From Sphaerolaimus hirsutus (Eukaryota; Nematoda; Chromadorea; Monhysterida; Sphaerolaimidae): a DNA stretch of 64,000 nucleotides. The notes beneath the pieces were generated by a model. That model worked only from the letters and a program-made list of their open reading frames with translations. It did not search any database and was not told where the DNA came from. Of the stretch, positions 6,153-52,510 are shown piece by piece. The number at the start of each line of letters is the position of its first letter. The stretch's first letter is position 1. The position numbers and the translations under genes are program-made. The stretch spans positions 3,782,001 to 3,846,000 of the forward strand of contig OZ038452.1 of the NCBI GenBank assembly GCA_964036195.1, in the 5' to 3' direction.

Positions 6153-9100
6153 ATGCACAGCAGACGAGCTAGTAGCTCGACGAATGGGGGCGGAGCCAAG
6201 TCGATCCTGGTCCATTCGATCGCCTCCATCAACAACAAGTTTGAGGAACTCAGACTGGACGTGTGTCAGTCGACATTGATTTTATTGAGTACCTGGGGCT
6301 AGTTCCGCAAAATGAGAAGCTAAAAGTGAAATGGCAAAGGCGAAGTAAAAGCGCAAAGGCCAAGTGAAACGGCAAGTGTATTGGCAAAAGCGAAGTAAAA
6401 AAATAAAAACTAATTTCTCTTCTCTTTTGCCATTTCACTTGCCAATTCACTTGCCGTTTCACTACGCCTTTGCGCTTTTACTTCGCCTTTGCCATTTCAT
6501 ATCTCACTTCTCATTTTGCGGAACTGGCACCTGGCTTACCGTCTTTCTTTGTATAGAAAGACATACCTCCAATAGAACGGCAGCCTCCAATAGAACGGCA
6601 GTTCCTCCTTCAGTTCCGATAGAAGGGTGCTTTTCTATCAGAAAAATACGGGTAGGTAACCGAGCCCTTAATCTCGACATTTTGAAGCAGCAAGTGGGGG
6701 TCGTGTCCACTGTATCACCCCCCTCCCCCACCCCCACCCAACCCCCAACCACCCGACGCAGTGGACTTCGCGCTGGGCATCCCGGCCATCCGGGAGGTGT
6801 TCATCACGGCGTCGCGTCCGTGGCGGGTCCTGTGGCTGGTGGCCGCCATCGCCTGCCTCACCGCCTGCACCGTGTTCAGCTACGGCTTGCTCGAGAGTGT
6901 TCGTGGGGGTGAGGGTGAATTGTGCACCGATCACAAACAATAAGTGGAAAATTTGAAAAGTTATCTAAAATCCTAAAATCCTGACGAAAAAATAACTCCC
7001 CTGGGGCCTTTTTCAAAGATATACGGTACCTATTTGTACAGGTTGTCAGCCTATATTTATGGTTAAAATAACATCAAATCAACAGAGTCTCCAATCCAGC
7101 ACTCAAGATATCATTGTCAAATTATGCTGTTCGAAGTTTACTCTTCCAAAGTTTTAAAACCCAATTGAAAAACCCACTCTCAACCATCACTCTCCCCTCC
7201 CCCAACCCACAGCTCCTAGAAAAGCCCACCGGAAACAAGCTATTCTACCGCGTGAACGGGTCTCTAGAATTCCCCCGAGTGTCGATCTGCACCTACGCGC
7301 GCCTCGACAGCAGCACCATGGCCAAGTACAACATTTCCATGGACATGATGTCGTGGTGGCAATCCCAAGCCATGTAAAGTGCAAAGTAAAGTGTCAAATG
7401 TAAAGTCAAATGCAAAGTAAAGTGTCAAATGCAAAGTAAGTGTCAAATGTAAAGTCAAATGCAAAGTAAAGTGTCAAATGTAAAGTAAAGTGTCAGTTGT
7501 GTATCCAAACCTTATTTTTGGTATCCAAATCTTACTTTTTGACTTAAGATTTGGATACAAAAACATAAAATTTGGATACCAAAAAATACGATTTGGATAC
7601 ACAATTGACACTTTACTTTGCATTTGACTTTATATTTGACACTTTACTTTGCATTTGACTTTATATTTGACACTTTACTTTGCATTTGACACTTTACTTT
7701 GCCTTTGACTTTACGTTGGACACTTTACTTTACACTTTACACGGCTTGGGACTGCCCCCTGGATGTTGTCCGTGTATAAGGGAACCTACTGGTTTTATAA
7801 TGAGGGGAGTTGGTTGATTTTTTTGTTTGTTTTATGCGTGAATGAGAAACATATTTTTTGCTCGTTATAGGGTGTAGCGCATTTATATTTTAGCTTGGGT
7901 TCAGAGTGTTTACATGAGGCAAATTTGACACAGCAGTCATTTAAATTGGCTAATATTCTTTTGAATATTTCGTTTCATAATATACTGCACTGCATTAATT
8001 TGGTCTGTCGGACTTCATTGATTGTTTTTGAATAAACCCAACATCTTTTCCACCTATCACAGAGGGGGGGGGGAGTTATTCAAGTGGGGGAGGGGGTCAG
8101 CGGGGGGTCCCCACTCGGCCAGCAGGGGGAGTTATTCAATGAAGCTAGTTATTCAGGGGGTCTTATTCGAGGATATAAGGTAGATCTTTACGATAACGGA
8201 AAAAGATAAAATTAAAATAACGAAGATGTGTTTTAAATATGAAAATCTCCCGAGATTTTCGGCACACTAATTGCATCCAAAAACACACACGTACGGAAAA
8301 TGTATTTCAGAAAATTCAACGAGTCGGGAGGGCGACGATTTTTATCTCCTAGAATAAAGAGAACTTGAAAACTAGTTCATCTACCATTTGCTTATAGAAA
8401 AACATACATTGTGCTGTACACGTATGAAGAAGTGCCCACTTTGACATATTCTATGAAGAAAAGTAGTCGTTTCTACACTCACAAAAAACTACCCACATTT
8501 ACGCGTAAGTACGAGTAAAAAAAAGTATTTTACGTTTTCTACACTCTGTGGTGAGTAAAAAAAATACGTTTACGTTTACATATACTTTTAAAAAAGAACA
8601 GTAATTCCAACAACTCTGCGAGCCACTTCTCGCAGTGAACCAAAAGAGCGCCATGGCGGACATGATCGACGAGTACGGCTCGTTCAAGCGGCGCTACGAG
8701 GCCGACCACGGCAAGCAGTTCGACTTGCTGCAGCTCTTCCTGCAAGAGGGTCTCAGCTGCGGCCAGGTGCCTATCCCAGACCCTGTAAAGTGTAAAGTGT
8801 CAAATGTCATGAAATGTCATGGAAAGTGTTAATTGTCATGACAAATGTAAAGTGATTTTTAATAGTGTGGCAAATGTGAAGTGTTAATTGTCATGTAAGG
8901 TTCAGTAATCAAAGCGTTTCTTTTTTGTTTTGATTGACATTTGTTGACATTTATTGACATTTGACACTTTACTAGACATTTTACAGGATCTTGGACTGTC
9001 CCTGTCATCGAGTACTGTTCGTTGCAGGGAATGGACGAGACTGAGTGCGCTCTGGGATTGTAATATTTGATGTTTTGACACTTTATCTGCCCTATTGTAT

Positions 9101-12100: not shown

Positions 12101-15100
12101 ACGTAAGAAAGCGTTTTGTGGCCTTAAATTCCCTAAAAAATTGGAAAATTATTTTCGAATTTTCGAATTTATGAGTTTTCAAATTTTTTGAGAAAAAAAT
12201 CGATTTTTAAGTGTTTTTTCCAGGGGTGAAATAAAATTCGAAAATTCAGAAAAAATTCGAAAATTCGAAAATGTTTTCGAATTTTCGAATCTTTTTTTGC
12301 CATCGTTACTGAGGAGTAGTGATGGAAAAGGCACCGGGAAATTTGCCACCACACCGCACCGATACCTCTGCCAGTTCTCAGAAATGGCACGTGGCACCGT
12401 GGGTACCGGCAAAAATTCGCACTGCACCACACCGGCACCGGTGTCATTTTGAAAAAATAGCACCACCACCGAGGTTCATTTGGATTTAAGCACAAAGTTG
12501 ATAAGTCTACAGGAATAATGTTCTGCACACCGAGTTCTAAATAATCGCTTTGTCACATTGCCCCGGCACGCAGCTATGGCATAACCAGCTACTCATCTGG
12601 CATGTGCTTCAACGAATGCTACGCTCGCCTGGCGTCAGATTTTATTCACCCGACACAGTTTTTGGGCAACCCGCTTCGGTATATTTATATAAATGCGTGC
12701 GCCGCCCGATTTCGCGCCGCCGCCCGTCCGGGCAAGCATAACACTTCCAATGCAAACGACATTGAAGAGGGACAGCGTATAAATACCGTATTTGCTCGAA
12801 TACCACAAATCCTCGAATAAGCCCCCCCCCCGAATAACTCCCCCTTCGAATAACACCCCCTGTAAACTGACTGAGGAAAAAAATAACTCGAATAACCCCC
12901 CCCCCTCTTTTATGGGTGGGAAAGAAGTCCACGTATAAAAAACGTATGTATTTATGTATATGTTCATTAAAAGTATGCATTATTTTGCAGTTTATGCACA
13001 CTAGCATTGATTTCATTGCATGAATTATGGGATTTCTATTCTGGCTCACACGTTTATGCAGCCTACTTAACCCCCATTCAGATGATATACTGATCATGTA
13101 TTTTACTCAATACTCCGACGAAAAAATAACTCCCCCCTCGAATAAGTCCCCCTCAAAAAATTCTGAGGAAAAATAACTCCCCGGTGACTTATTCGAGGAT
13201 TTACGGTAATTCCCCTCGGTAATTATTTTTTCGGCATACTTTTTAACGGGAACTCAACGAGGGGGAATTATTCAAGGGGGGATCATGATTTCGTCAAAAT
13301 TTTCAAGCATGTTTGTATCAAATCATACCACGAAATATTCTTTATTGACACAATAACATACCATTTTTGTTCAAATTTGACACAACAAATTGTGCATGTG
13401 CCTCGGGCGGGGGGGGGGGGGGGATAATTTTTCTTCAAATTAGACACGACACATTGATCATATCACATATGCCATTAGGGGATTATTCGAGGGGAGTGTA
13501 TTCAAGCAAATAAGGTATACTTGAAATTGGCACCAGAAAAACTTTGGCACCAGAATCTTGGGTAACTTTCCAACTGTGATAAGTTTGCAACAAGGCGTGC
13601 GGCCCTGAAAACGAACGGGACGAATGAAATGTGTCGCCCGGTGTACCAGAGCTGCAAGTGCATGCAGGTGCCACTCCCAGACCCTGTAAAAGACCCTGTA
13701 ATGTGTCAAAGACCCTGTGATATGTCATGCGTCATGTAAAAGACCCTGTAAAGTGTCATGTGTTATGCGAAAAGATGAAAATCGCATATTAAAAAAATAA
13801 AATAACGATACGGGACTTGGCAGCCGGCCAAAATTTGCAAAAAAAAATAAATGAACGATATCCGAGGGAAAAATTAAGTCGGAGTTGGATCGTTAGTATT
13901 TTTAGTATATTTAAGCGATTTTCAACCCGTTTATAGAACGAATTCGAACTTTTGGCCGGCTGCCAAGTCACATACAGGGTCTTTTACAGGGTCTATTACA
14001 CTTTGCATGACATTTGACACTTTACAGGGTCTTTTACAGGGTCTGGGAGTGCATGCAGATCGGCAGCGTGCCCACCGAGTGGCTGGAGCAAAACCCGGGC
14101 AATCTGTGCACGCCCGAGTACGCCAGCAATTGCGTCCTGCCGCTGCTGCAGGTAACGTAAATATTAACGTTTTATACGTTAAATACGTGGGGGGTCTCAT
14201 TCTGGGGTGGGGAGTTTCATTCTGGGACGGGGGGTTTCATTCTGGGGTGGGAGTCTCATTCTGGGGTGGGGGGTCTCATTCTGGGGAGGGGGGGGGGGCG
14301 CGGGTTGGGCGCCATATCTATGACGCCTATCGGACCTTGATTTTTTATAGCACCTAGCTCTAGCGGCTTCACATATAGATTGTGTGAATGCATCGATTCC
14401 ACAAGTAACCATGCCCAAGCAGGGGTTTAGTAGGGGGGGGTGGGGGTAGATGTTTATATACCTATTTTGCACCTACTTTTAGCTATTTTTTCTATTTTGT
14501 CCTTCTATACCTCGGAAAAGCCTATATATTGAGCCCCCGAACCCTCTCTCTCTCTCCTCCCCCCCCCCCGAATTTTTCAGCTATCTACCCTCCGGAGGAG
14601 CAATTTACGATCTATATGAATCCACGCGGGGGTCAAAATGTACAAAACCCCTGTGCCCAAGTCACAAGAAATGTGGCACTCATTTTCAAGTTTTACCTGT
14701 CATTTGACTTGGCACTTGACACTTATCCCGCTACTTAAATAAACACTTTTCTTGTCACTTGCCACCTTACAAAATTGGCGCTTTGCCAAAACTGCGCAGG
14801 AGACTTCCTCATCGTTTCTATGGGACATTTACGATACAAAGAAAGAGTGCGACTGTCCAATGGCCTGTAACCGTTGGACGTTTGAAACTGATGTTTCCTA
14901 CAGTTCCATTACCAGGGATGGGATTGCATTTGACTGACGATTTTGTATCGGACAGCCATAATAATTTATCTGAAATATGAAATTGCGCACCACCCAAAAT
15001 GTCGGCTCGCTTGTACTTTCATAGTTGCAAAAAAATATTTACTTTTTGCTTGAAAGTCCGGTGCTTCAACAACAGTGGTATTTCAATGACAATTAACATG

Positions 15101-17571
15101 TATCTATTTGGCCCAGGAAGCGTAAAATTCAAGAGATGTTACAAAACGGGCTGCCCGAGAAACTTGTCGGGCAAATTAAATCCCGCCCCAGTAAGTCCTA
15201 CGACGTGGCGTACGCGTCACTGGTGGCCGCCGGCAAGCTGACCGGACAGGTGCCAGTCCCAGACCCTTTAAAAGCCCTGTAAAATGTCGAAGGTCATGCA
15301 AAGTGTCAAAAGTGATGTAAAATGCCCGGTCAATGGCAAACTTTTGCCATTTTACCGGGCATTTTACATGACATTTGACACTTTGCATGACATTTGACAT
15401 TTTACAGGGTCTGATACTGCCCCCAGGACAGCATTTCGGGCGTCAACAAGAGCTCCATCATACTCGACGTGTTCTTTGACACGCTCATTTACAAGATCAC
15501 CAATGAGACGGAAGAATTCACGATGGAGGTAAGTGTGCACTTAGATACGATAAAATTCAGTCGTTTTTGAGAGACGCGGGTTCGATTCCCGCTCGTCGCA
15601 AGTGCATTTTTGCACTTTGTCTATAGAACTTTTTGTACTTGGTGCAATTGTGGTAAATCTTGACATAATTATCAATATCACACAAAGCAGAGGCGCCTGG
15701 CTCCTGACATACTCCAAGTAACACACTCCTGACAAATTTGATAGCCATATGAACAAAAGAAAGCACCCAGAAATTTTTTTTTTCATCCAAAAACATACCA
15801 ACACCTCGCGGCAGGATTTCGTGTCCAAACTGGGCGGGCAGCTGTCGGTGTGGCTGGGCATACGCTTCCTGACAATCATCCAGGTGCTGTACTACGTGCT
15901 ACTGTCCATTTTGCTGCTCGTGCCCCTGGGTGAGTAAGAGTGCGGTATTAGACTTACGTTTGGGGGGGGGGGGGGTTGATAAATAATAAACACAGCAACA
16001 CTATAAATAAAACAGTATCATATTAAAAACTTTTCCCATTCCTTTTCCCGCCCCTTAATAAAGTTCACGAACCTTCAAACAACCCCCCCCCCCAAACTTT
16101 ACCCCCCAAAATCGCCGTTGCCCCCGCGCAGGCTGGGCCCGCTTTCTAGTGTGGCTGGGCTGGGTGAAGAAGAGCGACATCCAGCACATGAGTCCCGAGG
16201 AGGCCACCGCCGCCGGCATCCCCACCGTGGTCGTGCCCGGCATCTTGCCCGACGACGCGCCCGCCCGACAGGTGGACGGGCACTCGGTGCGTCGGGTGGG
16301 GGTTGGGTGGGAGGTAGGGTGTCAAATTTCCGTTTTCCGTTTTCCGTTTCCGTTTTCCGCAGGCAAATTTTTTCCGTTTTCCGTTCCGTTTTCCGGCTGC
16401 TGAAATTTTTTTTCCGTTTTCCGTTCCGTTTTCCGGCAACATTTTTTTCCGTTTCCGTTTTTCCGGCTCATTTTCCGTTTTCCGGCTAAATTTTCAGTTT
16501 TTCCGCCTTTTTTCCGTTTTCCGCCTCAATTTCCAGTTTTTCTGCCTTTTTTTCCATTTTCCGCCTCAATTTTCCATTTTTCCACCTCATTTTACCTTTT
16601 TCTGGCTCAACTTTCGGTCTTCTGATCAGCCAAACTGGCAAAAATTCATGCAGATTGTCAATGATGTAAAAAAATTTCTGTTTCCAGCAAAATTACTGCA
16701 AATTTTTTCCACTTCCAGCAAAAATTCAGCAAATTTTTGCGATTTCCAGCAAAATTCCAGCAAGTTTTTCCCATTTCCGTGCAAATTTGATTTTTCCGTT
16801 TCCGTTTTTCCGGCCTCTTTTTCCGTTTTCCGGCCGCTGAAAATTTTTTTCCGTTTCCGTTTCCGTTTTCCGCCAAGTGCAAATTTTTTTCCGTTTTCCG
16901 TTCCGTTTTCCGGCCACTGAAAATTTTTTTCCGTTTCCGTTTCCGTTTTCCGTAAAAAAATTTTTTTGACACCCTAGTGGGAGGGGCCCGCATACTAGTT
17001 GACAGAGACAGTAAATGTCGACTGGTTCAGATTCCAATTCGAAGCTTGTTGACGAGAAAATAAATGACGTTGAAATGCAAGCGTGTTGTATCATTTTGTA
17101 AATAATGAATGTGTAGTGTTGAGAAAATATTGCGGTATGTGCAATGTGAATACAAGGCCGGTATGAAGTAAATGTGTACATAATAATGTGTGATACTCGC
17201 AAGCTTCGAATTGGGATCGGAACCAGTTGACATTTGTTGTCTCTGTCAACTACTGTGTAGAACCAAAGTGACTTGCTGAAATCTAAAGCGTTTGGAAAGG
17301 AAAGTGTTATGTTGCTCATTCGCGCAGCCGGCGCGCCTACACGTCAGCGAACACGACAACACCACCACCAGGCACGAGATATAACTTGCCCGACAAGTTT
17401 TTTCGGGCGGCCCGACCTACTCCACTGCAGTTGATACGATGCCAGCTATGAATCGGAAAAGTATCTCTGCGGTCCATCATTCCAGCCACACTGAATAGGG
17501 CTGCCCGACAAAACGTGTCGGGCAAGTTAAATTACGAGCCGGGTCGCCGCTGGAAAAGTGGCGCGCGCTGA
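6153..17571 (+). CDS. DEG/ENaC-family sodium channel, about 16 exons, several split by introners
   Basis: Amiloride-sensitive-type cation channel subunit of the plasma membrane. Model: 6153-6264, 6762-6898 (TM1 in RPWRVLWLVAAIACLTAC), 7213-7355, 7762-7808, 8636-8766, 9004-9016, 10926 to about 11071, 12574-12633 (YSSGMCFNEC), 13595-13667 (QSCKCMQ), 14059-14151, 14800-14915 (ECDCPMACNRWTFETDVSYS), 15192-15249, 15427-15528 (ILDVFFDTLIYKI), 15815-15929 (KLGGQLSVWLGIRFLTIIQ then TM2), 16132-16286, 17328-17571. Two TMs around a Cys-rich extracellular loop fit the family. Phases agree except at the join near 11071-12574, which I could not resolve (a small exon may be missing). At least five junctions coincide with MITE-like inserts. 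The usual HG motif before TM1 reads LG, and the GxS filter reads GIR. The C-terminal exon is tentative. The start is the first ATG of the exon whose phase fits exon 2. Confidence 0.85.
6296..6530. mobile_element. Palindromic CWG-flanked MITE in DEG/ENaC intron 1
   Basis: Fold-back element from GGGCTAGTTCCGCAAAATGAG to CTCATTTTGCGGAACTGGCAC (each end quoted loosely), flanked on both sides by CTG (6293-6295 and 6531-6533). Arms are AAGTGAAATGGC/GCCATTTCACTT words. Same terminal pattern as 1878-2097. Long open frames across it are repeat artefacts. Confidence 0.7.
7356..7761. mobile_element. Introner A: hairpin MITE acting as DEG/ENaC intron 3
   Basis: Starts GTGGCAATCCCAAGCC and ends GGCTTGGGACTGCCCCCTG. 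The arms are tandem GTAAAGTGTCAAATGCAAA and its complement around a 100-bp AT-rich core, so the whole insert folds on itself. Removing it joins TCGTG to GATG and gives an uninterrupted reading frame, MMSWMLSVYKGTYWFYNEG. The splice that does this has GT...TG ends. Retention would stop translation shortly after the junction. Confidence 0.75.
8040..8185. mobile_element. Degraded CCGTATTT-family copy
   Basis: Contains GGGGGAGTTATTCAA words and ends ATTCGAGGATATAAGGTA, the diverged right end of the family. In DEG/ENaC intron 4; the rest of 7809-8284 shows nothing else recognisable. Confidence 0.45.
8285..8621. mobile_element. Truncated ACGTAAATACG-family element next to an exon
   Basis: Shares a long stretch (GAGTCGGGAG...ATTTTTATCTCCTAGAA and TACACTCACAAAAAACTACCC) with the fuller copy at 61903-62505 and ends CCAACAACTCTGC only 14 bp before the acceptor of the 8636 exon. 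It therefore forms the 3' end of that intron. Confidence 0.6.
8767..9003. mobile_element. Introner B: hairpin MITE inside a DEG/ENaC exon
   Basis: Begins GTGCCTATCCCAGACCCTGTAAAG directly after a CAG and ends TTTACAGGATCTTGGACTGTCCCT. Excising it joins GGCCAG to GTCATCGAGTACT and gives SCGQVIEYC, whose phase matches the next exon (GEFNSMTP...). The 3' end carries no AG at the restoring position (GT...CT, or a 1-2 base shift). A nearby AG (ATCGAG, 9012) would leave only a 4-bp exon. Confidence 0.65.
10116..10506. mobile_element. Inverted-repeat element made of GAAGCGTGTG repeats
   Basis: The ends are ACAGCAAAAATGAGTGTTTGGATGCG and GACGCATCACACACCCATTTTTTGCTGT (inverted, partly diverged). Between them lie imperfect repeats of GAAGCGTGTG and its complement CTTCACGCG. 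Open frames in three directions across it are repeat-driven. In the intron before the 10926 exon. Confidence 0.65.
11072..11295. mobile_element. Introner C: reverse-oriented copy at the end of a DEG/ENaC exon
   Basis: Here the GGGGCAGTCCCAAGCCCTG end comes first and the GACTGCCAC end last, so the element is reversed relative to the gene. It is flanked by CTG (11069-11071) and CAG (11296-11298). Arms are GTAAAGTGTAAAGTAAAGTG and its complement. It sits just after LKCAVGL. Whether it lies in an exon or at its 3' border is unclear, because the following coding stretch is short and its phase does not match the next exon. Confidence 0.6.
11331..12309. mobile_element. Inverted-repeat element with TTTTCGAATT arms
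   Basis: The ends are GTAACGATGGCAAA and TTTGCCATCGTTAC, with TGAGGA on both sides as an apparent target duplication. The arms are degenerate TTTTCGAATTTT repeats and the middle (about 11600-12060) is mixed, including a fragment with CCGTATTT-family words. It fills most of the intron before the 12574 exon. Confidence 0.65.
12784..13518. mobile_element. Two CCGTATTT-family MITEs in tandem
   Basis: Left copy begins ACCGTATTTGCTCGAATA and ends TTCGAGGATTTACGGTAA near 13209; the second runs on to CAAGCAAATAAGGTA at about 13517. Arms are CCCCCCTCGAATAA and complements, with a 15-G run at about 13408-13422. Fills the intron between the 12574 and 13595 exons. Confidence 0.65.
13668..14058. mobile_element. 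Introner D: hairpin MITE forming a canonical GT-AG intron
   Basis: Begins GTGCCACTCCCAGACCCTGT immediately after CKCMQ (CAG at 13665-13667) and ends GGGTCTGGGAGTGCATGCAG, with CAG again at 14056-14058. Splicing CAG|GTG...CAG|ATC restores CKCMQIGSVPTEW in frame. The element provides the donor and the duplicated CAG provides the acceptor. The arms carry AAAGACCCTGTAA repeats around an AT-rich core that itself contains an inverted TTGGCAGCCGGCCAAA pair. Confidence 0.8.
14185..14292. repeat. GC-rich minisatellite
   Basis: Five to six units of roughly 19-21 bp, GGGGTTTCATTCTGGGGTG, ending in a G run. In the intron after the 14059-14151 exon. The open frames across it are artefacts of the repeat. 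Confidence 0.75.
14916..15191. other. Non-canonical intron candidate in DEG/ENaC (GG...AG)
   Basis: No GT donor of the right phase exists before the in-frame stop in the exon ending SYSSIT. CAG occurs at both candidate borders (913-915 and 15189-15191), so joining ATTACCAG to TAAGTCC restores SSITSKSYDVAYASL in frame. The removed segment would begin GGATGGG and end CGCCCCAG. Its right part carries the TGCCCGA...TCGGGCAAATTAAAT hairpin also found at the end of the insert at 17379-17538. The alternative of a missed small exon cannot be excluded. Confidence 0.4.
15250..15426. mobile_element. Introner E: 177-bp hairpin forming a canonical GT-AG intron
   Basis: Starts GTGCCAGTCCCAGACCC right after CAG (15247-15249) and ends GTCTGATACTGCCCCCAG, the last CAG being the apparent duplicate. 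Almost the whole insert is one hairpin, closing on GGCAAACTTTTGCC. Removal restores LTGQDSISGVNKSSII in frame. The cleanest example of the family in this gene. Confidence 0.82.
16316..16975. mobile_element. Inverted-repeat element rich in CCGTTTTCCG
   Basis: The ends AGGGTGTCAAATTT and TTTTTTTGACACCCT bracket about 660 bp of degenerate TTCCGTTTTCCG words. A related end, GAAAAGGAAAGTTGACACCCT, is seen near 41630-41650. In the intron before the last DEG/ENaC exon; long open frames here are compositional. Confidence 0.7.
16985..17265. mobile_element. MITE with CTAGTTGACA / TGTCAACTA ends
   Basis: Inverted ends ACTAGTTGACAGAGACAG and CTGTCAACTACTGTG flank arms containing GTCGACTGGTT/AACCAGTTGACATTTG and CAATTCGAAGCTTG/CAAGCTTCGAATTG. 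Related copies with CACACGCTAGTTGAC ends occur at 42409-42569 and 59597-59762. Confidence 0.65.
17379..17538. mobile_element. Second-type insert (CTTGCCCGAC hairpin) in the last DEG/ENaC exon
   Basis: A 155-bp insert starting ATATAACTTGCCCGACAAG and ending TGTCGGGCAAGTTAAATT, with ACGAG on both sides (17374-17378 and 17534-17538). Each end forms a small TGCCCGA/TCGGGCA hairpin. Removing one ACGAG copy plus the insert keeps the frame open to a TGA at 17569. If retained, translation ends at once (GAG ATA TAA), which would simply shorten the tail by ten residues. Confidence 0.6.
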
Positions 17572-20843: not shown

Positions 20844-23006
20844 TCAACCGCACACGTGCGCTGCGAAATTGTCGAAAGTTTGGTGCAGCCCGGCGGCCAG
20901 CCGCTCGACGACCCACTGCGCAGACCACACGGCGAAGTGCAGCTGCGACGAGGCGGCCACATCAAAGCGGGCATGATGGGGGCAGTCCCAAGCCCTGTAA
21001 AGTGTAAAGTAAAGTGTCAAATGTAAAGTCAAATGCAAAGTAAAGTGTCAATCAAAAGAAAAAATTAAAAAATTTTATTACCGAACTTTGCATGACAATT
21101 GACACTTTACTTTGCATTTGGCTTTTCATTTGACACTTTACTTTACACTTTACAGGGCTCGGGACTGCCACATAGACGGCCACGGGGACAGGGGCGGGAA
21201 AAGTGACCAAAAAAGTTATGACTGGAATAATGGCTGGGATTATGTAGTTCACTTAACGCCAACGTTCGCACAGAATTGGCAAAGACTTCAGCGACATCAA
21301 AGACATCACACATAGGGTTGGAAAAAAATCGATTTTTTTTAACGACCCCGATTTTTTTTAAAAAAAATCGATTTTTTTAAATAAAAATCGCTGGGGTTGA
21401 AATTAGCCCCAATTATCTCTAAAATCGCCTCTAAAGGTAAGAAAAGCCATATAAATTGATAGGGAGTGCAAACTTATGCTTTATGTTGTAATACAAGTAC
21501 TGTAGAGCTTTAGAAAAGCTTGAAAGTCAGTTATTTTTAAGTTTCAGAGTAATTATCTAGTTATATTTGCAGCGTGAATTACACCTCATCAATCATTTGC
21601 GATTTTGTTTGCAGAAATTACACGTTCTTGCTGAGAACAAAGTAAAAATCATCTTGGGAGTGAACATGAATGCATTTGCATAAATGTTTGATGTTAAAAC
21701 ACATAGCATACAAATGAATACTTTCCGAAATGATTCATGGCCTACCTTACATGCTTAAAAGCACACAGAAATGGGTGCTACACCACCAAATTATTTGAAA
21801 AAGTAATGAAAAAAGCAAATGATGGATTGCTTGCATGAAAATGCGTGCTCGCGCGCAAAATTTTTTGCATTTTACCTAGTGCAAGGGTACCAAAATTTAT
21901 CCCCAGCGATTTTTTTTTAAAAAATCGGTACGGGTGCTGCGATTTTTTTAAATAAAAATCGGAATTTTTTTAAAAAAATCGCTTAAAAAAAATCGCTTGC
22001 CAACCCTAATCACACATCAGCGGTTTCATCACACTATAGAACAGTTCAGCACACCATTTCAACATCACTTCATTCGTCAAAATACCCTATTATTCCCGGC
22101 ATCAATCAACTGTCAAGAATTTACTCACCACTTACACATTCACTTGTCACTTTCTTAAACACACGCTTAAACAGACTTTCTTACCAAACATCAACACCAA
22201 AAACTCAACCCACCAACCACCCCCCCCCAAACCAACCACGCTGAACACGCACAGGTAGGCGAGCGTGGTGGGCAGCAAGAACAGGACGAAGGTGAACAGG
22301 AGCGTGCCGAGCAGCAGCTGCTGCGCGTCCAAGTGCGCCTGGTCGACGCGCGCCCGCAGCTCGTTGTACTTCTTGCCGGCGAACAGACGGAGGAGAGAGC
22401 GCAGCGCGCACGTCTGCAGCTCGAATAGCCTGTGAAAGGCAGGGAGAAATTGAGGGTATTTTAATTGTCTGGGACCGATTTTGCAGATTGTCGAGTGCAC
22501 GACTAGTGAAAGTGATGCGGTGGGTTAAAGTGGAATCGATTATGTCAAATTACAAGTGAACGTAAAGTGACAAGTTCACTTAAAAAGTGACTTGTCAGGT
22601 TTTGTTTGTTGCCACTTTCATTCACAAATCAGATTTATTTTCACATCAAATAGTGCGGAAAAACCCACTTAACAAAATGATTCAAAAACAACACAAAACT
22701 GTTCGCAAAAACTGTAATACCGTATTTCATCAAAATACTGCTACTCCTCGACATAACACCACTCTCAAAAGACCCCCTTGAAAATAAACTCCCCTCGAAG
22801 GTATTCGAGCAAGTACGGTAGTAAAAACCACTTCCTTCAGTCGCACCTGGCGGCGTAGATCCGAAAACAGAACACGTGCACGGCGAGCAGACTGGCGATG
22901 TCGCACAGCAGCGCCAGCTGGGCGCCGATTCCGCCCAAGGCGCACAGCTGCACGCAGAACAGCGCCGCCCAGCCCCAGCCCGCCTGTCGCACAAACGACA
23001 CGTACG
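20844..23006 (-). CDS. PIGQ: GPI GlcNAc-transferase subunit PIG-Q, 3' exons
   Basis: Subunit of the ER complex that transfers GlcNAc to phosphatidylinositol, the first step of GPI-anchor synthesis. Three exons on the minus strand: 23006-22847, 22429-22237 and 20942-20844. The first encodes membrane segments ending HVFCFRIYAAR. The second has the conserved LLRLFAGKKYNELRARVD, LLLGTLLFTFVLFLLPTT and a further hydrophobic stretch. The last encodes LHFAVWSAQWVVERLAAG and a stop at 20844-20846, matching the family segment that follows VFTLLR. Phases (1, 2, 0) and GT-AG borders agree (donors GTGCGA and GTTGGT). Upstream exons should be at higher coordinates but I did not find them. The protein ends earlier than the human one; an unused donor near the stop (GTTGAG) leaves a further exon possible. 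An introner-family MITE lies just 5' of the last acceptor. Confidence 0.82.
20979..21171. mobile_element. Introner-family MITE inside a PIGQ intron
   Basis: Runs from GGGGCAGTCCCAAGCCCTG to GGGCTCGGGACTGCCAC, with GTAAAGTGTAAAGTAAAGTG arms. Flanks are ATG and ATA rather than CWG. It ends 37 bp before the canonical acceptor of the last PIGQ exon, so it is intronic and is not itself the intron boundary. Confidence 0.7.
21313..22008. mobile_element. Inverted-repeat element, AGGGTTGGAAA family
   Basis: Ends AGGGTTGGAAAAAAATCG and CGCTTGCCAACCCT; poly-A/T arms carry AAAAATCGATTTTTT words. Sibling of 19683-20555 and 37037-39586. Sits in the PIGQ intron between 20942 and 22237. Confidence 0.7.
22719..22821. 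mobile_element. Short CCGTATTT-family MITE in PIGQ intron
   Basis: Ends ACCGTATTTCATCAAAATAC and GGTATTCGAGCAAGTACGGT, about 100 bp, ending 26 bp from the exon donor at 22847. Confidence 0.65.
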
Positions 23007-27829: not shown

Positions 27830-30800
27830 TCACTTGGGCAGTTTGCCCTGCGCCTCCAGTTTCAGCCTCAGACTGTGGGGCATTTCGGGCGGCGGCGGGC
27901 GCGGCAGGGCGAACACCACCTTGACCGTGTCGTAGATAAACCACTGGGCGGCCGTCAGGGTGCCGATCATGATGATGCGCGGGAACAGCCCGCCCCACAA
28001 ACCTGCGTGGGCAATGCAGCGGGATATAGCGTATTTCCTCGAATTACCCCCGGGGGGTTTATTTTTTCAGAGTGAAAATTTTGAGAGAAAAAAGTGAAAA
28101 ATGCAGCAATAACCACCATTTATAAGTTTTTACAGCCTTATATAAGGATGTAGATGGTATAAACGATGTTCTAACGTAACACAGTAAGTGTTTGAACGTC
28201 TGTTACGCATTTCCCGAACCACAAATTCATGGTGCCAATTTTGAGGGGGGTATTTCGAGGGGGGGCGTATTTCGAGGAAATACGGTACATCATGGGTACA
28301 ACGCTATGCTTTTTTATTGATGGAAAAAAATTGAAATCAGGTTTTTTCAAAATCGTCCAACATTTGGGTATAGTGTAAAAATAGGTGTAGGTACGTTAAG
28401 TGTCACATAATATATTGTTATGTCTATTGTGGTCATATTATGACCGTAGCAGGGGTTAAGAATGGGGTGTTGGGTGACCCCCCCCCCCCCACTCAAAATC
28501 GTCCAGCTTTCGCAAGCGGTTTTGAGAAATTTTTCCGGAATGTTCGCTCAAAATCGCTCATTTTCATAAATTTTTACAGATTCTCACCTTCAAAGACCTC
28601 AACCCCCCGCAAACTGACCCATCCATCCGAGCCGCTTGACAATCTTCACCACGCCCGCTTCCCTATCCTTATTCATAACCGAAACCACCGTGTCCGCGGG
28701 GTGGCTCACGATGGCGCAAAAAACGCCCGCTATATAACCGGCTACGAAAGTGACGACCAGGGGGCAGTCCCAGACCCTGTAAAATGCCCTGTAAAATGTC
28801 AAATGTCACGCAAGTGTCAAAAGTTATGTAAAATGCTCTGGGAAATGGTAAACGTTTGCCACTTTCCAGAGCATTTTACACGACTTTTGACACTTTGCGT
28901 GACATTTTACATTTTACAGGGCATTTGACAGGGTCTGGGACTGGCACCAGCTGCTCGGGCTTGGAGCACTCGGAGCGCGGCTTGGGCACCACGAACTTGT
29001 ACAGGGCCTCCAGCGTGCGCTCGAAGCAAGCGAATTTCATCATCGTGTAGGGGATTTGCCTGCGGTTGGGAGGGGGCGGTTTAATGAGGTTCAAACGGGA
29101 TCCGATCCCGAAACCCGATATTTTTCGGGATTTGGCATTCCCGATCCCGAAAAACTTCCCCAATCGGGTCCCAGTTTAGAGCAAAAAAATAGAAAACTAC
29201 ATTTTAATGGAGTTATTTTGTGGTTCCGATGTGTGACTTGATAGAATTGCGAATTTTAACAATGGAAAACTGGAGAAACTAAACTGTTAAAAGTCAAAAT
29301 TCAAAAGCGAAAATCCAATCTGCCTTGAAAAATTTGTTTGCCCCCCCCCCCAAAAAAAAATTCCAAGAACCCCCCGGGCCCTACTCACCTAGCCCACAAA
29401 GTAGGCAGGCTCTTATAGAAGCCCATGAAGCCCTCGGTCCTGTAGATCATGGGCGCGCACTTGCGCAGGATCGTCGGCGCGGTGGAGCTGGTCTGCATGC
29501 GCACCTTGGACGCCTCCATGGGGCACAGCATGATGTCGGCAAGGAACTCGGCGCTCGCGCTCGCCGCCAGGTAGAGGGATGTGCGCCACGTGTAGGAGAG
29601 CTCCTGCGGGGTTAAAGGGGGTGGACAGGAGGTCAGGGTGGGGGGTTAATGGGGGGTGGACAGGGGTGAGGGTGGGGGGCTGGTGGGGGGTGGACAGGGG
29701 GTGAGGGTGGGGTGTTGATGGGGGAAGATTTCAGTTTGATGTACACACACGCACACTAATTGACGGCCGAAATTTCCAATACTGTAGATAAATTTTATTT
29801 GAACAAAAGCAGTTTTGAGGTTACCAGCATGAATTTTTTGATCTCCATCAACGGTAGTTGATGAACAGCTCATTCAATTGCCAATCCCAGACCCTGTAAA
29901 ATGTCAAGCAAAGTGTCAGAAGTCATGTAAAATACCCTGGAAAGTGGCAAACGTGTTTGCCATCTTGCATGACATTTAACATTTTGAAGGGCAGTCTATT
30001 CGAAAATCGACCGATTTATGACATGGTAGGACACGGTAAATTATTGACATTTACCGGTAGTTACATGTAATTTTGTCGCTTTATGTATCTGCATTCTGCT
30101 GTTCCCGTTTTCCCCAGCCAACGGGTTTTAAATTACTAAAAAACTTTATTTTCAAACGTGTTTGCAAAAAAACCCAGTGTCAATGGAACTCAGTAGCGGA
30201 TACTGGGGGGTTGGGGGGTCGGTAAGCCCCTCAAACACACTCAATCCCAGTGCACTAACCTCGCCGAGCATATCCGAGTAGAGCACCTTGAAGATCTCGT
30301 AAAAGCCGAACTTGCCCAAGCCCTGCAGCGAGTAGCCGATGCAAGTGGGCGCCCAGCCGCGCACCAACCCGCGGGTACCCGTCTCGCGGTACGTTACCCG
30401 GAACCCGTGAACCAGGTTCCGGTACTTGGCCTTGTCCACCTGGGGGGGGGGGTCTTTTGATGAATTGGGTTTTGAGAGAGTATTTTTCGCTCGGAATTTT
30501 TTCAGTTGAATCCCGCGAGAATATCCTCAATTGGATCGACCACCGATGTCACTAAAATGGCGATTAAAATGGGCGCGACAAATTTGCCCTCGAATGCAAC
30601 AAACGGCGCCAGAAAAATGTCCATGACCAACAAAAAAATATTTCAACGATTTCAAACAAAAAAGTTTATTTAAAAAAGTTTTTAAAATCTAAAAAAGATG
30701 CGCGCGCACCTGAATGCGGCACTTGACCAGGTCGAGCGGGGTGATGCCCGTGTGCGTCAGGCCGCATGAGATGATGCCGCCGAAGCCGCACAGCGCGAAG

Positions 30801-33800
30801 TACTTGGCGCTGCCGTACGCGCACGAGATCTCTGAGCGACGGCGGGACGGGTGCTTTGCACGGACGGTTTCGAGTTATGTTCAGTACAAAAGTATTGCAT
30901 ACGGCGCATGGCGTGGGTAAACGGGGGTGCAACAGACGCCATTGTGCGGCTTAGGCAGATTAACGTTATTTAAATAAATAAAATTAAAAATATTAGTTAT
31001 TTGATGAGTTGTGTGTGATAATCTCGTCTGTTGCACACCCATTGACTCACGCCACGCACTGTATGCAATACTTTTGTACTGAACATAACTCCACTTAACC
31101 GTTTGCACCCAGGCGCATCGTTCCCGTTTAGGACAATAACATATGTAGTTTCAAGATTAAAATAGATTACCACTTACCTATGCCTCGTTGCCCGCTCTCG
31201 AAAAATTCTACCTGTTAAACTAGTGAGGAAAAAATACCCCCCCCCCCCCCTTCGAATAATCCCCCCCTGTTGGCATATGATAATTTTTTGTGCCCAATTT
31301 GAACAAAAATGACACGTTATTTTGTTAATGAAAAATAATTTGTAAAATTAGTTGTTAGAAACATGCTTGAAACTTTTTACGAAATAAAAATTTCCCCTTT
31401 GAATAGTTCCCCCTCAAAAATGTGAGAAGAAATAATAATTACCCAGGGGAATTATTCAAGCAAATACGGTATTTGTAAATGGGTACTTCCATCAAACAAG
31501 AATACCAGGCGCCATTTTCGCCCCTCTAAAAACATCATTGACATTGAAAGTTGGTAATTCCCGTGAAAAGTGCGAAACGTTTCAAGTGCATTTTGAGATT
31601 CCAAACTTAATGTGAAATACGTCATTTGAATAGATAAGGAATTGGTTCCAGTAAGAACACAATTTCAGCGCAGAATCGATGACTTACACTCTACAATCTT
31701 GATTCGGTCATATTTTATTAACATAAGTAGTGGGTCAAAAAAGCACATGCACTACAGTAACAGCTACTGTTACAGGGGCTAATGGCACAGCAGGGGGGGT
31801 ATTTACTGGCCCCTGACCTGCACTGGGGGTAGCATTTGAGAAGGGTACCTGGGGTTCGGGTCATTACAAAACGTCCTTTCCACTGATCGAACCCATTCAT
31901 GTTTTTCCAAATTTAGATGGGTGATTACATTGATTTAAAAAAATTCATACGGCAACCCGAGACCACCCACGCACCCCCCAAAAAGGGCACCCCACTTCAA
32001 ATCCAACCCTACAACAAAACCTAATCTCACCGTGTTCATCCGGCCGTTCGCCCTGGGCGTACTGATAGAAAGTCCACGAGATGAGACACTGCAGCACCAG
32101 CCAGCAACCAGTGACGGCCGCCACGCCCGCGTCCAAAACGGGGGGTGCCTTGGCGCGCACCACACGACCCCCCGGGGACCCCCTGGGGGGTGACTCGGAA
32201 CTGGAGTGGCGACGAAGAAGCGGGTGCTTGGGGTCCGCAGAGGGAGATAGCTTGGCCATGACTATAGTTTAGAGTGAGTTGATTGGATGGAGGGATGTCT
32301 AGAGGGACGGCAGAGTTGCGCGGTGGTTTTTAGTTGCCTGCGGGCGTTGATTAAAATGGCTGGTGAGAGGGGGTCTCCAAGGGGTATCCACGTTGAGCAT
32401 TGAATATCGGCTATTGTCTATTTTTAATTTTTAGTGATCTTCCCAGCTCCCAAAATTTTGACAAAATCAACTTTGAGACCATACCGAAGTCACAGCCTAT
32501 GTGAACATACGCATGTTGCAACTTGGAGACCCCTTGTGCTATTTATCATGCTGTTACGGCACTAGTATTTTGTGCATTAATACCCACGTCAAATAGAAAA
32601 CGGCAAAATGTCAACTGGCACATTTCAGGCAATTTTTAATTATATGCCAATAAATTTTTAAATTCTATGCCAAGTATTCGTGTCCAGGACGTTTTATTTT
32701 TGAAGTTTTGATGTATTTGTCAGTGACTTGGCCTGAAATTTGTCACTTGGGCAAATAGGGCTGGCAAATACCAGATTCTCACGTTGATGACCAGAAATCA
32801 GGGGTCTTCTAAATTTCGACCCTCCGGGGGGTTTGATAGATAGCAAATCGGTCCTCCGGGGGGACGGATAGCTAAAAGATGTTCTGGGGGATTTGGGGGT
32901 TTGGGGGGGTCGCGGGGGTTCAATTTGCCGTATTTGCTTGAATAATCCCCCTGGGGGTTATTATTTCGCCGGACTTTTTTCAGGGGGAACTATTCGACGG
33001 GGGGAATTATTCGAGGGGGGAATTATTCGACGGGGGGAATTATTCGAGGGGGGATCATTCTTTCGTCAAAATGTTCGAGCATCTTTCTATCAAGTCATTT
33101 CACGAAATATGCATTTTTAACAGAAAAACGCGCCATTTTTGTTAAAATTTGGCACTACTAATTGATGAAATATCTTTAAGGGGGATTATTCGGGGGGGAA
33201 TTATTATTTCCTCACTCGTGTTACACGGGGGATTATTCGAGAGGGGAATTATTATTTCCTCACTCGTGTTACAGGGGGATTATTCGAGGGGGAATTATTC
33301 AAGGGGGAACTATTCAAGCAAATACAGTATGAGCATAGAAGGAAGAAAAGGGAGAAAAATTTTGCCTCCGGGATGAATAGATAGCGGAGCGGCCTAGATA
33401 GATACACTTGTCACTTCAGGTGGCAGTCCCTCACCCTGTAAAGTGTCATGTCAATTGTCAAATATTATGGGCGTTTGTTCATCGTTCATTCAACTTAGAA
33501 TTCAACTTCAACTTTCAACTTTCAACTAGTGACGTTTTCCGGGCTATTATGCACGATGAACAAAGTAAGGTGTGTGCAGATCGTTTGCTCTAGAATGGCT
33601 CATGAGCAAGATAGAAAATAAATGTTTTGTAAGAGTGTTTTCAGAACTCATGTGCATCAATCGAATGCCTATTTACTGTCAACTGCCCCGACAAATGTTA
33701 AGTGTCGAATATCACTCAGTACACCAACAAAACAACACAACAAAATCCCCCCTCTTTGTTTCGATTGACATTTCACATAACAGTTGACACTTGACAGTCT

Positions 33801-48785: not shown

Positions 48786-51700
48786 ATGCAAAACACGTCG
48801 ACGCCGTTCAACGCGACCAACATCACGCTGCCCGACCTCGCCGACGAGTTCAACTTGGCCGACTTTTTCGACGACAAAAATCTACTATGGGCCTACGCGC
48901 GCATCCTGTTATTCGCGCTAATTTTTCGAGCCCTAGATTATCCGATTTTATTTTCGATTATAAAAAGAAATTACGGCAACAGTTCGGCTAGAAGGAGGTG
49001 GCGCATTAGAAATGAGACGACTTCGTTGATTCACGCGACGATTTCCGGCAGCTGGGCGTTGGCTACATTCGTTCTTGACCATGACATTTGGAAGGATATG
49101 ATAAATTGGTTCAGCACGTATGCGTATTGGCTGGTTAGTGTGTTTTGGGGGATTATTTTGATGACTAGTGGGACGCGGGTACGATCAGAATATTCAACCG
49201 ACAATGGCGGCGCACACACTAGTTGACTGGTTGGCACGTGTGTCAACTCAGATTTAGGCTTCACTTGTCACAGAGCCATCTTCAATGCACTGGTCGTATT
49301 TAGCATTTATTTTTCAACATTGCCGCATGTGTATTTGGAGATCGCCTGGCGACTGGTGATGGAATGGCGCCATGGCGCTGGCGCCATTTGAGGGCGCCAA
49401 AGTGCGCCGCCCTATGGCGCCTTGGCGCTTGGCGCCCACTTTCCGAATGGCGCCATGGCGCCCTTGGCGCCTGGCGCCTTTTTCTGGCGCTTTTCCATCA
49501 CTAATCACAAGCCAACCCCAGCACAAATGCACAACATTGCAACATTTCCCACCACGCCATTCAGACGCTATTCTCGATCGGCTACTTCGTGCACGACGCG
49601 ATCGACTTGGTGTCGCACGAGCGGTCGCTGCGAGTGCTCGAACTACTCTTCCATCATGTCTCCATCGTGTTCGCGTTCATGTGCGGCGTCACCACGCACA
49701 GGTGCGATTTTTAGGTTCCTCTGAGTGGATAAAAAGGTGAGGCGGACATAGTGCGAGTACCGTAGTTCTTCTAATAGAACGTCACCTACAATATAACGGC
49801 AACTAATAGAACTGCAGCTCTTGGCACATTTTTGCGCTCACGAAAGCAATAGAACGGCTGCCTCCAATAGAACGGCACCTCAAATAAAACGGCAGGTAAT
49901 AATAATATCTATGGTGCAATAGTGCCAAAACACATTAATAAGATAAATTTATGGATGAAAAAATTTCAAACCATTCAAATAAATATGAAAACTTCACAGT
50001 GAAGCTATGATGCCAAAATAAATACCTATGACATCAAAACTATAACTACCGTATTACCTCGAATTATCCCCCCCCCCTTGAATTAACCCCCAACTCGAAT
50101 TACCCCCCCCTCAAAATCGGCTGGGGAAATAATAACCCCCCCTCGAAATACCCCCCCCCCCTTCGGAATGATGTACGTCATGTACATAATAAATACGTCA
50201 TGTATGCAATGTACATGATGTATATTACTGTTTATCTGTATTGCAGCTACACATGGACATGTTTGTGTAGCTAATCTACGTTTTTATGTCCAAATATATC
50301 TTGTTTGGACACATTTATTACCTGTTTTGAGCATGCAAATGCCTACTATTTACTACGATCCTTACGAAAATTTCTGACGAAATAATAAGACCCCCCCTCG
50401 AATAAACCCCCCCCCTCGAATTAACCCCCCCCTCAAATTTTGCTGGCGAAATAATACACCCCCATGGGGGTATTTCGAGGTAATACGGTATGTTGAAATA
50501 AAAAATGTGTGAAAAATTGCTGAAAATTAAAACGGCAACCTCCAATAGAACGACAGGTAAAAAGTTGACACAAAAATAGAACGGCGCTCTTCTATTAGAA
50601 GAAATACGGTAAGCGGTATGGCCGCCTTACATTTGTACAACACAATTTCTCGTACACGTTTTCCCTTCTGCAGGTTCGTGGCCCTGTGCGCCTGCGGCTT
50701 GCTGATGGAGTTGAATTCCATTTGCCTTCATTCCAGATCCCTGTTGAATTTGCACGCGGTCGATAGACAGAGCATAGTTTATAGGCTCGTGAGTTATTTT
50801 TAGAGGGTGGCAAACTGATACACTATGTTACATTTTAGTCCGGAATTTGTTATCACGCTTTGTTGTGGAGATGTTCCAATGAAAAACGTGACTGCCAGGT
50901 AAATAAAAACCGTATTTCCTCGAATTACCCCCGGGGGGTTATTTTTTCAGAGTGATCATTTTGAGAGAAATACGTGAAAAATGCAACAATAACCACCATT
51001 TATAAGTTTTTACAGCCTTATATTTATACGGATGTAGATGGTATAAACGATGTTCTAACATAACACAGTAAGTGTTTTCAACGTCTGTTATGCATTTCCC
51101 GAACCACAAATTCATAGTGCCCATTTTGAGGAGGGGGGGTATTTCGAGGAAATACGGTAGCTATTTTTGTTTGTTGCACCCAGACATAGTTGTTCAAACG
51201 TATTTACGTTTACTTGATAAATACGTATACTCGCGTACTGCGTAAATACGTTTATGTTTCCTCCCGAAAAAAATACCGGTACTCACATACTCGCATACTT
51301 TTTGAAAGCACGCGAGTACAGAAAACGTATTTAAGGGGACAGAAAATGTCATTTTGCCAAACAGAAAGTGACAAACATAGGACATTTTACATGCGGAATA
51401 GTACAGGCCCCCTCAAATACCCCCCCCCCCTCATCCAGGTATCAGTCTCCAACGTGGCCAGTTTCATAGTATTTCGCCTGTCGACCACGTTCTACATGCT
51501 CGTGTGGGACCTGCTGCACTTCGACCAGATGGAGGCGTTCTACTTCGGCGTGCTCTTTTTCGTCATGTTCTCGCTGCTGTGCGTCAACCTGATCCTGTTC
51601 TACCGGGTGCTGTTGGCGGACGCGTACGTGCAGCCGCCGCCCGCCAGCTGCCTGGTGCCGATCCCAGACCATGTAAAGTGCCCTGTGAAGTGTTGAATGT

Positions 51701-52510
51701 CATGTAAAGTGTCAAAAGTCATGTAAAATGCCCTGCAAAATGGCAAACGTACGTTAGCCATTTTGCAGGGGATTTTTCATGACTTTTGACACTTTGCGTG
51801 ACATTTGAAATTTTACAGGGTATTTTACAGGGTGCGGGACTGCCCCCTGGTGCCGCCGCCCGTGTGGCAGTACTTGCCCACTTTGAGACAGGCGCCTGGT
51901 GCCGGAGCCGGCGCGGCCGGACAACAGGTGCAGCTGGAGGCTGTTGTGGTCGGTTTGGAGAATTTTGGGGGTTTTTTTATTGTTTGGGGTGGGGTCATTT
52001 TTGCGGGTTTTGCGAGTGGGAAAAGGCACTTTTCGCGCCGCTTGAGTGGTTAGAAATTTTTTAGAACGTGTGTACCTGACAGGTAAATATTTTGATGAAA
52101 TACACATGTGAATTTACTTGTCAGCCGAGTTAAACTTACTTGTCACTTTCCTTGGTACTTGTCCACTTGCGGAATGTAGTTGACAAATAGTGACTGTGAC
52201 AAATACCTAGCAAAAAAGCTTCAGCCCTCGGGTTTGACATATTAGCTTGCAATGTAACTCATCGACTAAGCCCAGCTCAGCTCAACTTGAAAAACACACA
52301 CAATCAATTTGACTACAACCATCCAAGAAAAAAAAATAAAACGTAAACCATCTCCCCCTTCAGCTGCAAACAGTGGACGAGTCGGCAGCAGAAGCCAAAG
52401 AACAACACGCATTGGATGCTGAAAGGCAGTCGGTCGCTTCCAGGGAAAGTGCCTACATGTCTGTAGCTGGAGATGTCATCATGGGCACTGATAATGATAT
52501 CATTCCTTAG
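48786..52510 (+). CDS. TLC-domain membrane protein (TLCD1/TLCD2-like), complete, 6 exons
   Basis: Polytopic membrane protein of the TRAM-LAG1-CLN8 group; TLCD1/2 proteins influence membrane phospholipid composition at the plasma membrane. Exons: 48786-49133, 49565-49701, 50674-50788, 51439-51654, 51850-51927, 52364-52510; 346 residues with all phases matching. Family landmarks are RWRIRNETTSLIHATISG, GYFVHDAIDLVSHER, VLELLFHHVSIVFAF, LLMELNSICLHSRSLL and NLILFYRVLLAD. Several hydrophobic helices are evident. Residues after the last helix are a Pro-rich then acidic/polar tail longer than in vertebrate TLCD1/2. The start ATG follows an AG acceptor-like CCAG, so a 5' non-coding exon is possible. 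The intron at 51655-51849 is an introner with GT...TG ends; other introns are GT-AG. Which TLCD paralogue this is cannot be decided by eye. Confidence 0.88.
49362..49505. repeat. GGCGCC palindromic repeat element
   Basis: GTGATGGAATGGCGCC...GGCGCTTTTCCATCAC ends surround dense GGCGCC/GGCGCCATGGCGCC words. Similar blocks are at 53028-53260, 53715-53945, 23965-24030, 24400-24610 and 56870-57110. Open frames through these blocks are artefacts. Confidence 0.65.
49757..50612. mobile_element. AATAGAACGGC element with a CCGTATTA MITE nested inside
   Basis: Outer ends TACCGTAGTTCTTCTAATAG and CTATTAGAAGAAATACGGTA, arms with CTCCAATAGAACGGC. A CCGTATTACCTCGAATTA...TTTCGAGGTAATACGG element (50049-50490) is nested in it. 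Both families share the TACCGTA terminus. In TLCD intron 2. A fragment lies at 6560-6625. Confidence 0.7.
50910..51160. mobile_element. CCGTATTT-family MITE in TLCD intron 3
   Basis: Left end ACCGTATTTCCTCGAATTAC, right end TATTTCGAGGAAATACGGTA. Core matches 28030-28287 closely. Confidence 0.75.
51655..51849. mobile_element. Introner G: hairpin MITE forming a GT...TG intron in the TLCD gene
   Basis: Begins GTGCCGATCCCAGACCATG after CTG and ends GGTGCGGGACTGCCCCCTG. Arms GTAAAATGCCCTGCAAAATGG and complement close on CAAACGTACGTTAG, so the intron is almost entirely a hairpin. Excision restores SCLVPPPVWQYLPTL in frame; unspliced reading ends after a dozen residues. The flanks also share CCTGGTGCCG, which leaves several equivalent cut positions, none GT-AG. 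Confidence 0.8.

Follow-up and report, generated by a model that had tools for sequence, protein, structure and literature searches.

A hairpin of 190 bp at positions 28758–28947 interrupts conserved codons (13 residues) of an SLC25A3-type carrier gene on the minus strand of the window, the whole stretch of 64,000 nucleotides analysed here. The hairpin is one copy of a genome-wide family, and its exact excision requires an intron with GT and TG ends. We think it probable that the family consists of introners, in the form of a NuwaI-like (PHIS/Harbinger) hairpin DNA transposon that is spliced by a spliceosome accepting TG at the 3' end. We also favour, albeit with somewhat less assurance, the broader reading that an animal whose other introns, so far as observed, are GT-AG routinely relies on TG as a full 3' site in a large number of young introns, probably hundreds, that the CWG target of a Harbinger-type transposon sets this site, and that stages of a change from TG to AG can be seen. 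Introners themselves are known from many eukaryotes; what appears to be new here is an introner whose 3' site varies with the transposon target.

Six exons of the SLC25A3-type gene (e2–e7) were placed, at 30710–30831, 30260–30439, 29389–29603, 28948–29059, 28619–28757 and 27830–28002, all on the minus strand. They contain 941 in-frame coding nucleotides, the first exon not being among them; a coding sequence of seven exons and 1053 bp, as proposed in a first-pass annotation, was not reproduced. The exon upstream of the element (28948–29059) ends in SKPEQL and the exon downstream (28619–28757) starts with VVTFVAGY, both being supported by exon placement and Pfam. The remaining four introns between the placed exons are GT-AG, with donors GTGCGC, GTTAGT, GTGAGT and GTCAGT. 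Such introns flank the exons at 29389–29603 and 30260–30439 on both sides, the latter with a C tract at its acceptor; the exon at 30710–30831 has an AG acceptor and a GT donor, and the last exon (27830–28002) is preceded by a GT-AG intron with the acceptor GCAG directly before GTTTGTGG. Long C/G tracts are common in the window, and the one at 30440–30453 serves an AG acceptor as its pyrimidine tract; the CCCCC[A/T]G end of the element is similar to it.

On the minus strand the upstream exon ends in GAGCAGCTG, the inserted segment runs from GTGCCAGTCCCAGACCCTG to CAGGGTCTGGGACTGCCCCCTG, and the downstream exon begins with GTCGTCACT. The MITE proper (28761–28947, 187 nt, GTGC CAGTCCC...GGGACTG CCCC) is defined by its inverted arms and by the family consensus, and its borders read CTG followed by GTGCCAGTCCCAGACCCTG on the left and CAGGGTCTGGGACTGCCCC followed by CTG on the right. 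Its 5' terminal inverted repeat, GTGCCAGTCCCAGACCCTG at 28929–28947, contains the putative GT donor, and its 3' terminal inverted repeat at 28761–28779 starts, when read inward, with GGGGCAGTCCC. One copy of the CTG target duplication is the Leu codon that ends the upstream exon (28948–28950); the other, at 28758–28760, would be the 3' end of the intron and supply its TG site, both assignments being based on the sequence and on the triplets of the family. The predicted intron, at 28758–28947, is the element plus one target triplet (190 nt). These coordinates are exactly those first annotated, with exon ends at 28948 and 28757, and the inverted ends and flanking CTG described at the same time are borne out by the arms, the fold and the triplets.

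Complementarity in the arms of the element is 93% over 54 nt and 88% over 42 nt. Folding of the RNA from 28740 to 28970 gives −144 kcal/mol, compared with −58±4.4 kcal/mol in 200 shuffles (z −19.6), which rules out a hairpin arising by chance. Because CTGGT is common to both junctions there are six equivalent cuts, as had been claimed; none of the six is GT-AG, and the one that starts with GT ends in TG. Canonical GT-AG removal that leaves the protein unchanged is thus excluded, since the other choices found alter the protein; at several CTG/CTG sites (named by left and right triplet) there are in-frame GT-AG alternatives, although at the cost of conserved codons, five of which would be lost in the gene CNOT9. 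A stop codon is encountered if the SLC25A3 element is read through. GTGCCA is a poor donor as a 5' site. U12-type introns have an extended 5' site, ATATCC or GTATCC, and end in AC or AG; the SLC25A3 intron does not match this type, its 5' site being GTGCCAGT and its end TG.

The SLC25A3 sequence at the junction is regarded as nearly invariant in animals. In the genome that holds the window (348 Mb in 762 contigs) there is a second SLC25A3-type gene, on contig C13, in which KPEQLVVTFAAGYI is uninterrupted within one exon. We regard this paralogue as stronger evidence for the SLC25A3 join than the Mito_carr match, which is gapless and places residues 37–73 on profile positions 3–39, with just three residues preceding the join. 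The two genes have a dN of 0.078 and a dS of 1.02 (114 codons from three exons, with the variable part of one exon excluded), so the protein sequence has been conserved since the genes separated. The first-pass annotation had set against its own reading a second intact SLC25A3 gene with the window locus silent; the first half of this was found, in that a second gene without the element exists. A BCKDHA-like gene on contig C2 likewise gives a one-piece match to query residues 46–103 across the site, at 40% identity, so that for both SLC25A3 and BCKDHA second genes exist which are uninterrupted at the TG site. Insertion into a previously intronless exon position is supported at both of these sites, and an older intron that later acquired the element is ruled out by the uninterrupted C13 paralogue together with the Pfam joins described below. 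For CNOT9 the genome search found no second gene, its two matches being the sequences on either side of the element. At the BCKDHA locus a CAG/CAG element and a CTG/CTG element both occur as introns, and the diverged C2 gene is uninterrupted at both sites. The second SLC25A3 gene (C13:14058876 region) also lacks the intron found before QIPYTMMKF in the window gene and, after AAGYI, contains a GT-AG intron absent from the window gene.

The exact 18-base 3' end of the element has 1,713 matches genome-wide, 1,559 of them followed by NG, and reversed control patterns of this end gave no matches in the genome. CWG followed by the exact 17-base 5' end has 1,390 matches. From 78 loci around copies, the second SLC25A3 locus and the window we extracted 109 elements (one of them, at L059, with its left end wrongly set), 105 of which are clearly oriented. 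Their left and right triplets are CAG/CAG in 34 copies, CTG/CTG in 33, CTG/CAG in 11, CAG/CTG in 4 and other combinations in 23, as counted in a non-random sample of the genome in which some copies had been picked for an NG end and are located on contig C1. GT starts 102 of the 105 copies, a T on which the orientation was partly scored; the left end is GTGC in 86, and the right end, read inward, is GGGG in 88. The target triplet would provide the last bases of the intron, with CAG giving GT-AG and CTG giving GT-TG. The copies start and stop at exon borders and their similarity reaches both intron ends, a trait of introners. That members throughout the genome show this arrangement in conserved genes lends support to the earlier proposal of a transposon-derived intron removed with GT...TG ends. 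The SLC25A3 element differs by 7.6% from the family consensus (38 copies of 183–200 nt) and is not very young. A scan of viral contigs found no relative.

Several other members lie in the window. A plus-strand copy at 15250–15426 forms an in-frame intron between KLTGQ and DSISGVNK (CAG/CAG, GT-AG), and another at 51655–51849 on the same strand lies in a coding exon between PPPASCL and VPPPVW (CTG/CTG, GT-TG); neither join has a Pfam match, and the exons at both were used in the codon-score training described below. A copy of a longer subfamily at 7356–7761, also on the plus strand, separates MDMMS from WMLSVYKG (GTG/CTG, GT-TG) and has no Pfam match. A minus-strand copy of a related subfamily at 20976–21171, between the apparent coding frames VPVAVY and HARFDV, has a weak coding signal and the triplets TAT/CAT, and would need GT...AT ends. 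At 13668–14058 there is a 388-bp relative between KCMQ and IGSV with GCATGCAG on both flanks, a repeat longer than the usual CWG.

Within coding sequence the copies show a strong orientation bias. Using a codon score trained on window exons, and requiring coding on both sides of a copy, 31 copies are sense and 4 antisense (P 1.7e-6), or 28 and 4 after dropping the three copies used for training; none of the 4 antisense copies has a Pfam match. When the flanks were scored separately, exact excision keeps the frame in 25 of 27 sense copies, where one third is expected by chance (P 1.9e-10), the exceptions being L007 and L032. The CTG/CTG copies keep it in 10 of 11 cases. Frame and orientation lend indirect support to a removal of the elements from mRNA.

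Joined translations were searched against Pfam with 57 queries (44 sense, 13 antisense), picked for coding signal or familiar look; 24 gave matches at E≤0.01 and 33 did not. Eleven junctions are spanned by a single match above the curated cut-off, and all eleven are sense, although antisense frames were searched far less. Six of these joins are CTG/CTG and would require TG: SLC25A3, CNOT9 (Rcd1, E 4.7e-70), BCKDHA (E1_dh, 57 residues on 57 positions), OSCP1 (42 residues on 42), a BRK domain (L003, 34 residues on 34) and a 7TM receptor. The CAG/CAG joins number three (in OSCP1 and BCKDHA again, and in a kinase) and the CTG/CAG joins two (in a transporter of AA_permease type and in a STAG domain). 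The Pfam families come from the searches, and we take the genes named SLC25A3, CNOT9, BCKDHA and OSCP1 to be those. Three further matches fell below the cut-off and were uncounted: a CAG/CAG channel copy (L006) whose match extends one residue beyond the join, a sense copy (L068) with Trp_syntA at E 0.0096, and an antisense copy (L026) with CcmB across the join at E 0.008. The TG-ending copy L078 has a G-patch match just downstream of its join. Two elements, one CAG/CAG and the other CTG/CTG, interrupt the OSCP1 region (L016) as introns, and no fewer than two more relatives lie within or close to this gene.

Adding two copies, L043 and L013, to the 31 identified by codon score gives a set of 33 sense coding copies; L013 has LRR matches confined to one side of its join and is excluded from the eleven joins. 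All 33 start with GT, 19 end in AG and 14 in TG, so that the AG end of a U2-type GT-AG intron is missing from the SLC25A3 intron and from 13 others. In 30 of the 33 an AG, mostly as TTTTACAG, precedes the 3' end by 19 nt. Median divergence from the consensus among coding copies is 7.8% for CTG/CTG (n=8), 8.5% for CAG/CAG (n=5) and 6.9% for CTG/CAG (n=3). On these values the TG-ending copies are no fresher than the AG-ending ones, although subfamily structure may inflate the divergences as ages. Mismatched triplets are distributed unevenly: coding copies include six CTG/CAG and no CAG/CTG, compared with two and four among 36 copies without coding signal (one-sided P 0.03), or with five and four among all 72 other copies (one-sided P ∼0.09). 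Among the first 100 matches listed, the left triplet is CTG in 52 and CAG in 48, and the right end is TG in 39, AG in 59 and something else in 2 (P 0.09). These comparisons are suggestive, but only suggestive, of mutation from TG to AG after insertion.

The explanation that we prefer is that a non-autonomous hairpin DNA transposon inserts at CWG triplets and duplicates them. The left end of the element would then act as a GT donor and its right end would contribute a short run of C, followed by the duplicated triplet as the last three bases of the intron, so that a cut from the GT through the end of the triplet would restore the exon exactly. A CAG target would yield a GT-AG intron and a CTG target a GT-TG intron, and the U2 spliceosome of the host probably removes both versions. 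The hairpin may hold the intron ends together and hide internal AGs, leaving the triplet next to the stem as the first one available for the cut, and a TG end may sometimes be mutated to AG later. The AG at −19 may aid recognition of an intron that is nevertheless cut at the triplet, since TG sites in human genes also accompany an AG within 28 nt (PMC2374985).

In the main rival to this explanation the same AG is the acceptor itself. Splicing could be internal to the element, from a GC donor at +2 to the AG at −19, in which case the mRNA would keep 21 nt and the protein would gain seven residues per site, irrespective of the target triplet. Of the 33 sense coding copies, 28 have both dinucleotides (as do 53 of the 72 others), 21 nt would keep the frame, and published introners can add codons, as in an example from Aureococcus (PMC9860276). 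We nevertheless consider GC-AG splicing unlikely. It is impossible in five of the 33 copies (L003, L078, L050, the copy at 2959 of L074 and the window copy at 7356), and three of these, L003 with its BRK domain, L078 beside the G-patch and the window copy, end in TG yet lack one or both of the signals required. It would also place seven additional residues within highly conserved parts of CNOT9 and SLC25A3, and it leaves the GT and the last triplet without a role.

The existence of second genes bears on whether the CTG-type copies break genes, or cause partial mis-splicing, with the frames surviving as remnants while other gene copies do the work. The second SLC25A3 gene and the diverged BCKDHA-like gene on C2 both lack the element and could serve in this way, and TG is a poor acceptor under the human rule (PMC2374985). 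However, only one CNOT9 gene was found, and it needs the same GT...TG removal. By a crude estimate about three nonsense changes are expected in 941 nt under neutral change of 7.6%, and there are none in the six exons. Coding CTG/CTG copies are as diverged as CAG/CAG copies, and the bias of 31 sense to 4 antisense would be left unexplained. A broken gene copy, which the first-pass annotation had offered as the alternative to splicing, is thus disfavoured by six intact exons despite an element 7.6% diverged, and we hold it quite unlikely for the CTG-type copies in general.

Euglenids are reported to have hairpin introns whose ends vary, and removal without the spliceosome, as discussed for the non-conventional introns of that group, would have the paired arms join the exon ends independently of GT and AG. 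The hairpin is very stable with both junctions at its base, the ends on the 3' side do vary, and hairpin introns with variable ends have been reported in Amoebophrya (PMC7789003). A near-symmetric hairpin should be blind to orientation, yet the coding copies are sense and place GT first; terminal dinucleotides are not free as in euglenids, with GT in 33 of 33 sense coding copies, albeit by a scoring of orientation that favours this T. The sense bias and the fixed GT together favour the spliceosome, and make unaided removal very unlikely. Excision of the elements from somatic DNA, so that they never reach RNA, would also restore exons exactly, but we give it hardly any weight, as it predicts no orientation bias where a strong one is observed, and the assembly itself contains the copies.

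The reading as spliced introners finds several parallels. Introners in Micromonas, Aureococcus, Symbiodinium, copepods and others arise when a transposon copy inserted into an exon turns into an intron (PMC9860276), and they share with the present family terminal inverted repeats, a target duplication that gives one splice site and mostly exact restoration of the exon. In the same survey it is the 5' site that varies, with GC and GA, whereas here the 3' site varies, and 14 of 33 coding copies would end in TG; the survey started from annotated introns resembling each other, and its main text does not feature Harbinger. The NuwaI group of PHIS (PIF/Harbinger-like) elements generates a 3-bp CWG duplication and has terminal repeats of 12–61 bp usually starting with GGG (PMC4482050). 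Its CWG duplication, GGG start (here at the right end) and occurrence in animals are common to the present family, DDE_Tnp_4 transposases are abundant in this genome, and the duplication and the GGG terminus fit an assignment to this group, although the ends here differ, with GGGG on the right and GTGC on the left. An intron role, proposed for the family here, does not figure in the passages on NuwaI covered here, and NuwaI has its own transposase with matching termini, whereas none was identified here, where one DDE_Tnp_4 locus was read in part.

The hairpin introners of Amoebophrya are similar in having hairpin inverted repeats, direct repeats of 3–5 nt at exon borders and non-GT-AG ends (PMC7789003). 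In that dinoflagellate more than 60% of introns are non-canonical and without fixed ends; by contrast, the SLC25A3 gene has GT-AG ends at its other placed introns, and in the present family the GT on the 5' side is constant, with just the 3' end set by the target. Larvaceans of the genus Fritillaria are, as the present nematode would be, an animal lineage with many non-AG introns, but there the most frequent non-canonical ends are AG/AC and AG/AT and U2AF is duplicated in F. borealis (PMC13326754), whereas here GT-TG is bound to one transposon family. TG 3' sites in human occur in 36 genes, are of U2 type and are always alternative to a nearby AG within 28 nt, and AG-to-TG mutants show no splicing at TG (PMC2374985); human TG sites are known only beside a usable AG, whereas here TG would be the main site at many junctions. 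In the open-access papers searched, on introners with Harbinger elements and on introners with non-canonical sites in invertebrates, we found no report of the combination described here.

If the broader reading is correct, this genome displays intron birth in stages, with TG ends later becoming AG, which bears on the old questions of where new introns come from and how strictly a 3' AG is required. It would hold many near-identical introns, some in conserved genes, whose main differences are the site of insertion and a single base of the 3' splice site (CAG or CTG). Such a family could reveal the cost of TG, the extent to which a hairpin compensates for it and the speed of evolutionary repair, and could show a splice-site rule bent for one class of intron in a genome otherwise unchanged, in contrast to Fritillaria and Amoebophrya. 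Genes that bear the element will be wrongly annotated by prediction programs that require AG.

The genome contains at least 163 matches to the Harbinger-type transposase domain DDE_Tnp_4 (150 of 306 candidates scored), and more than 100 of the matches listed are nearly equal in score and length. One DDE_Tnp_4 transposase (L083, C3:5122734–5123566) has two short introns in its catalytic domain; the idea that a transposase carries the same MITE in its coding region was rejected, as these two short GT-AG introns differ in sequence. U2AF1-like matches were observed at C14:3032343 and C720:101293, nearly identical to each other, one contig being large and one small, so that the pair perhaps represents two haplotypes, and a further U2AF1- or ZRSR-like gene is present on contig C16.
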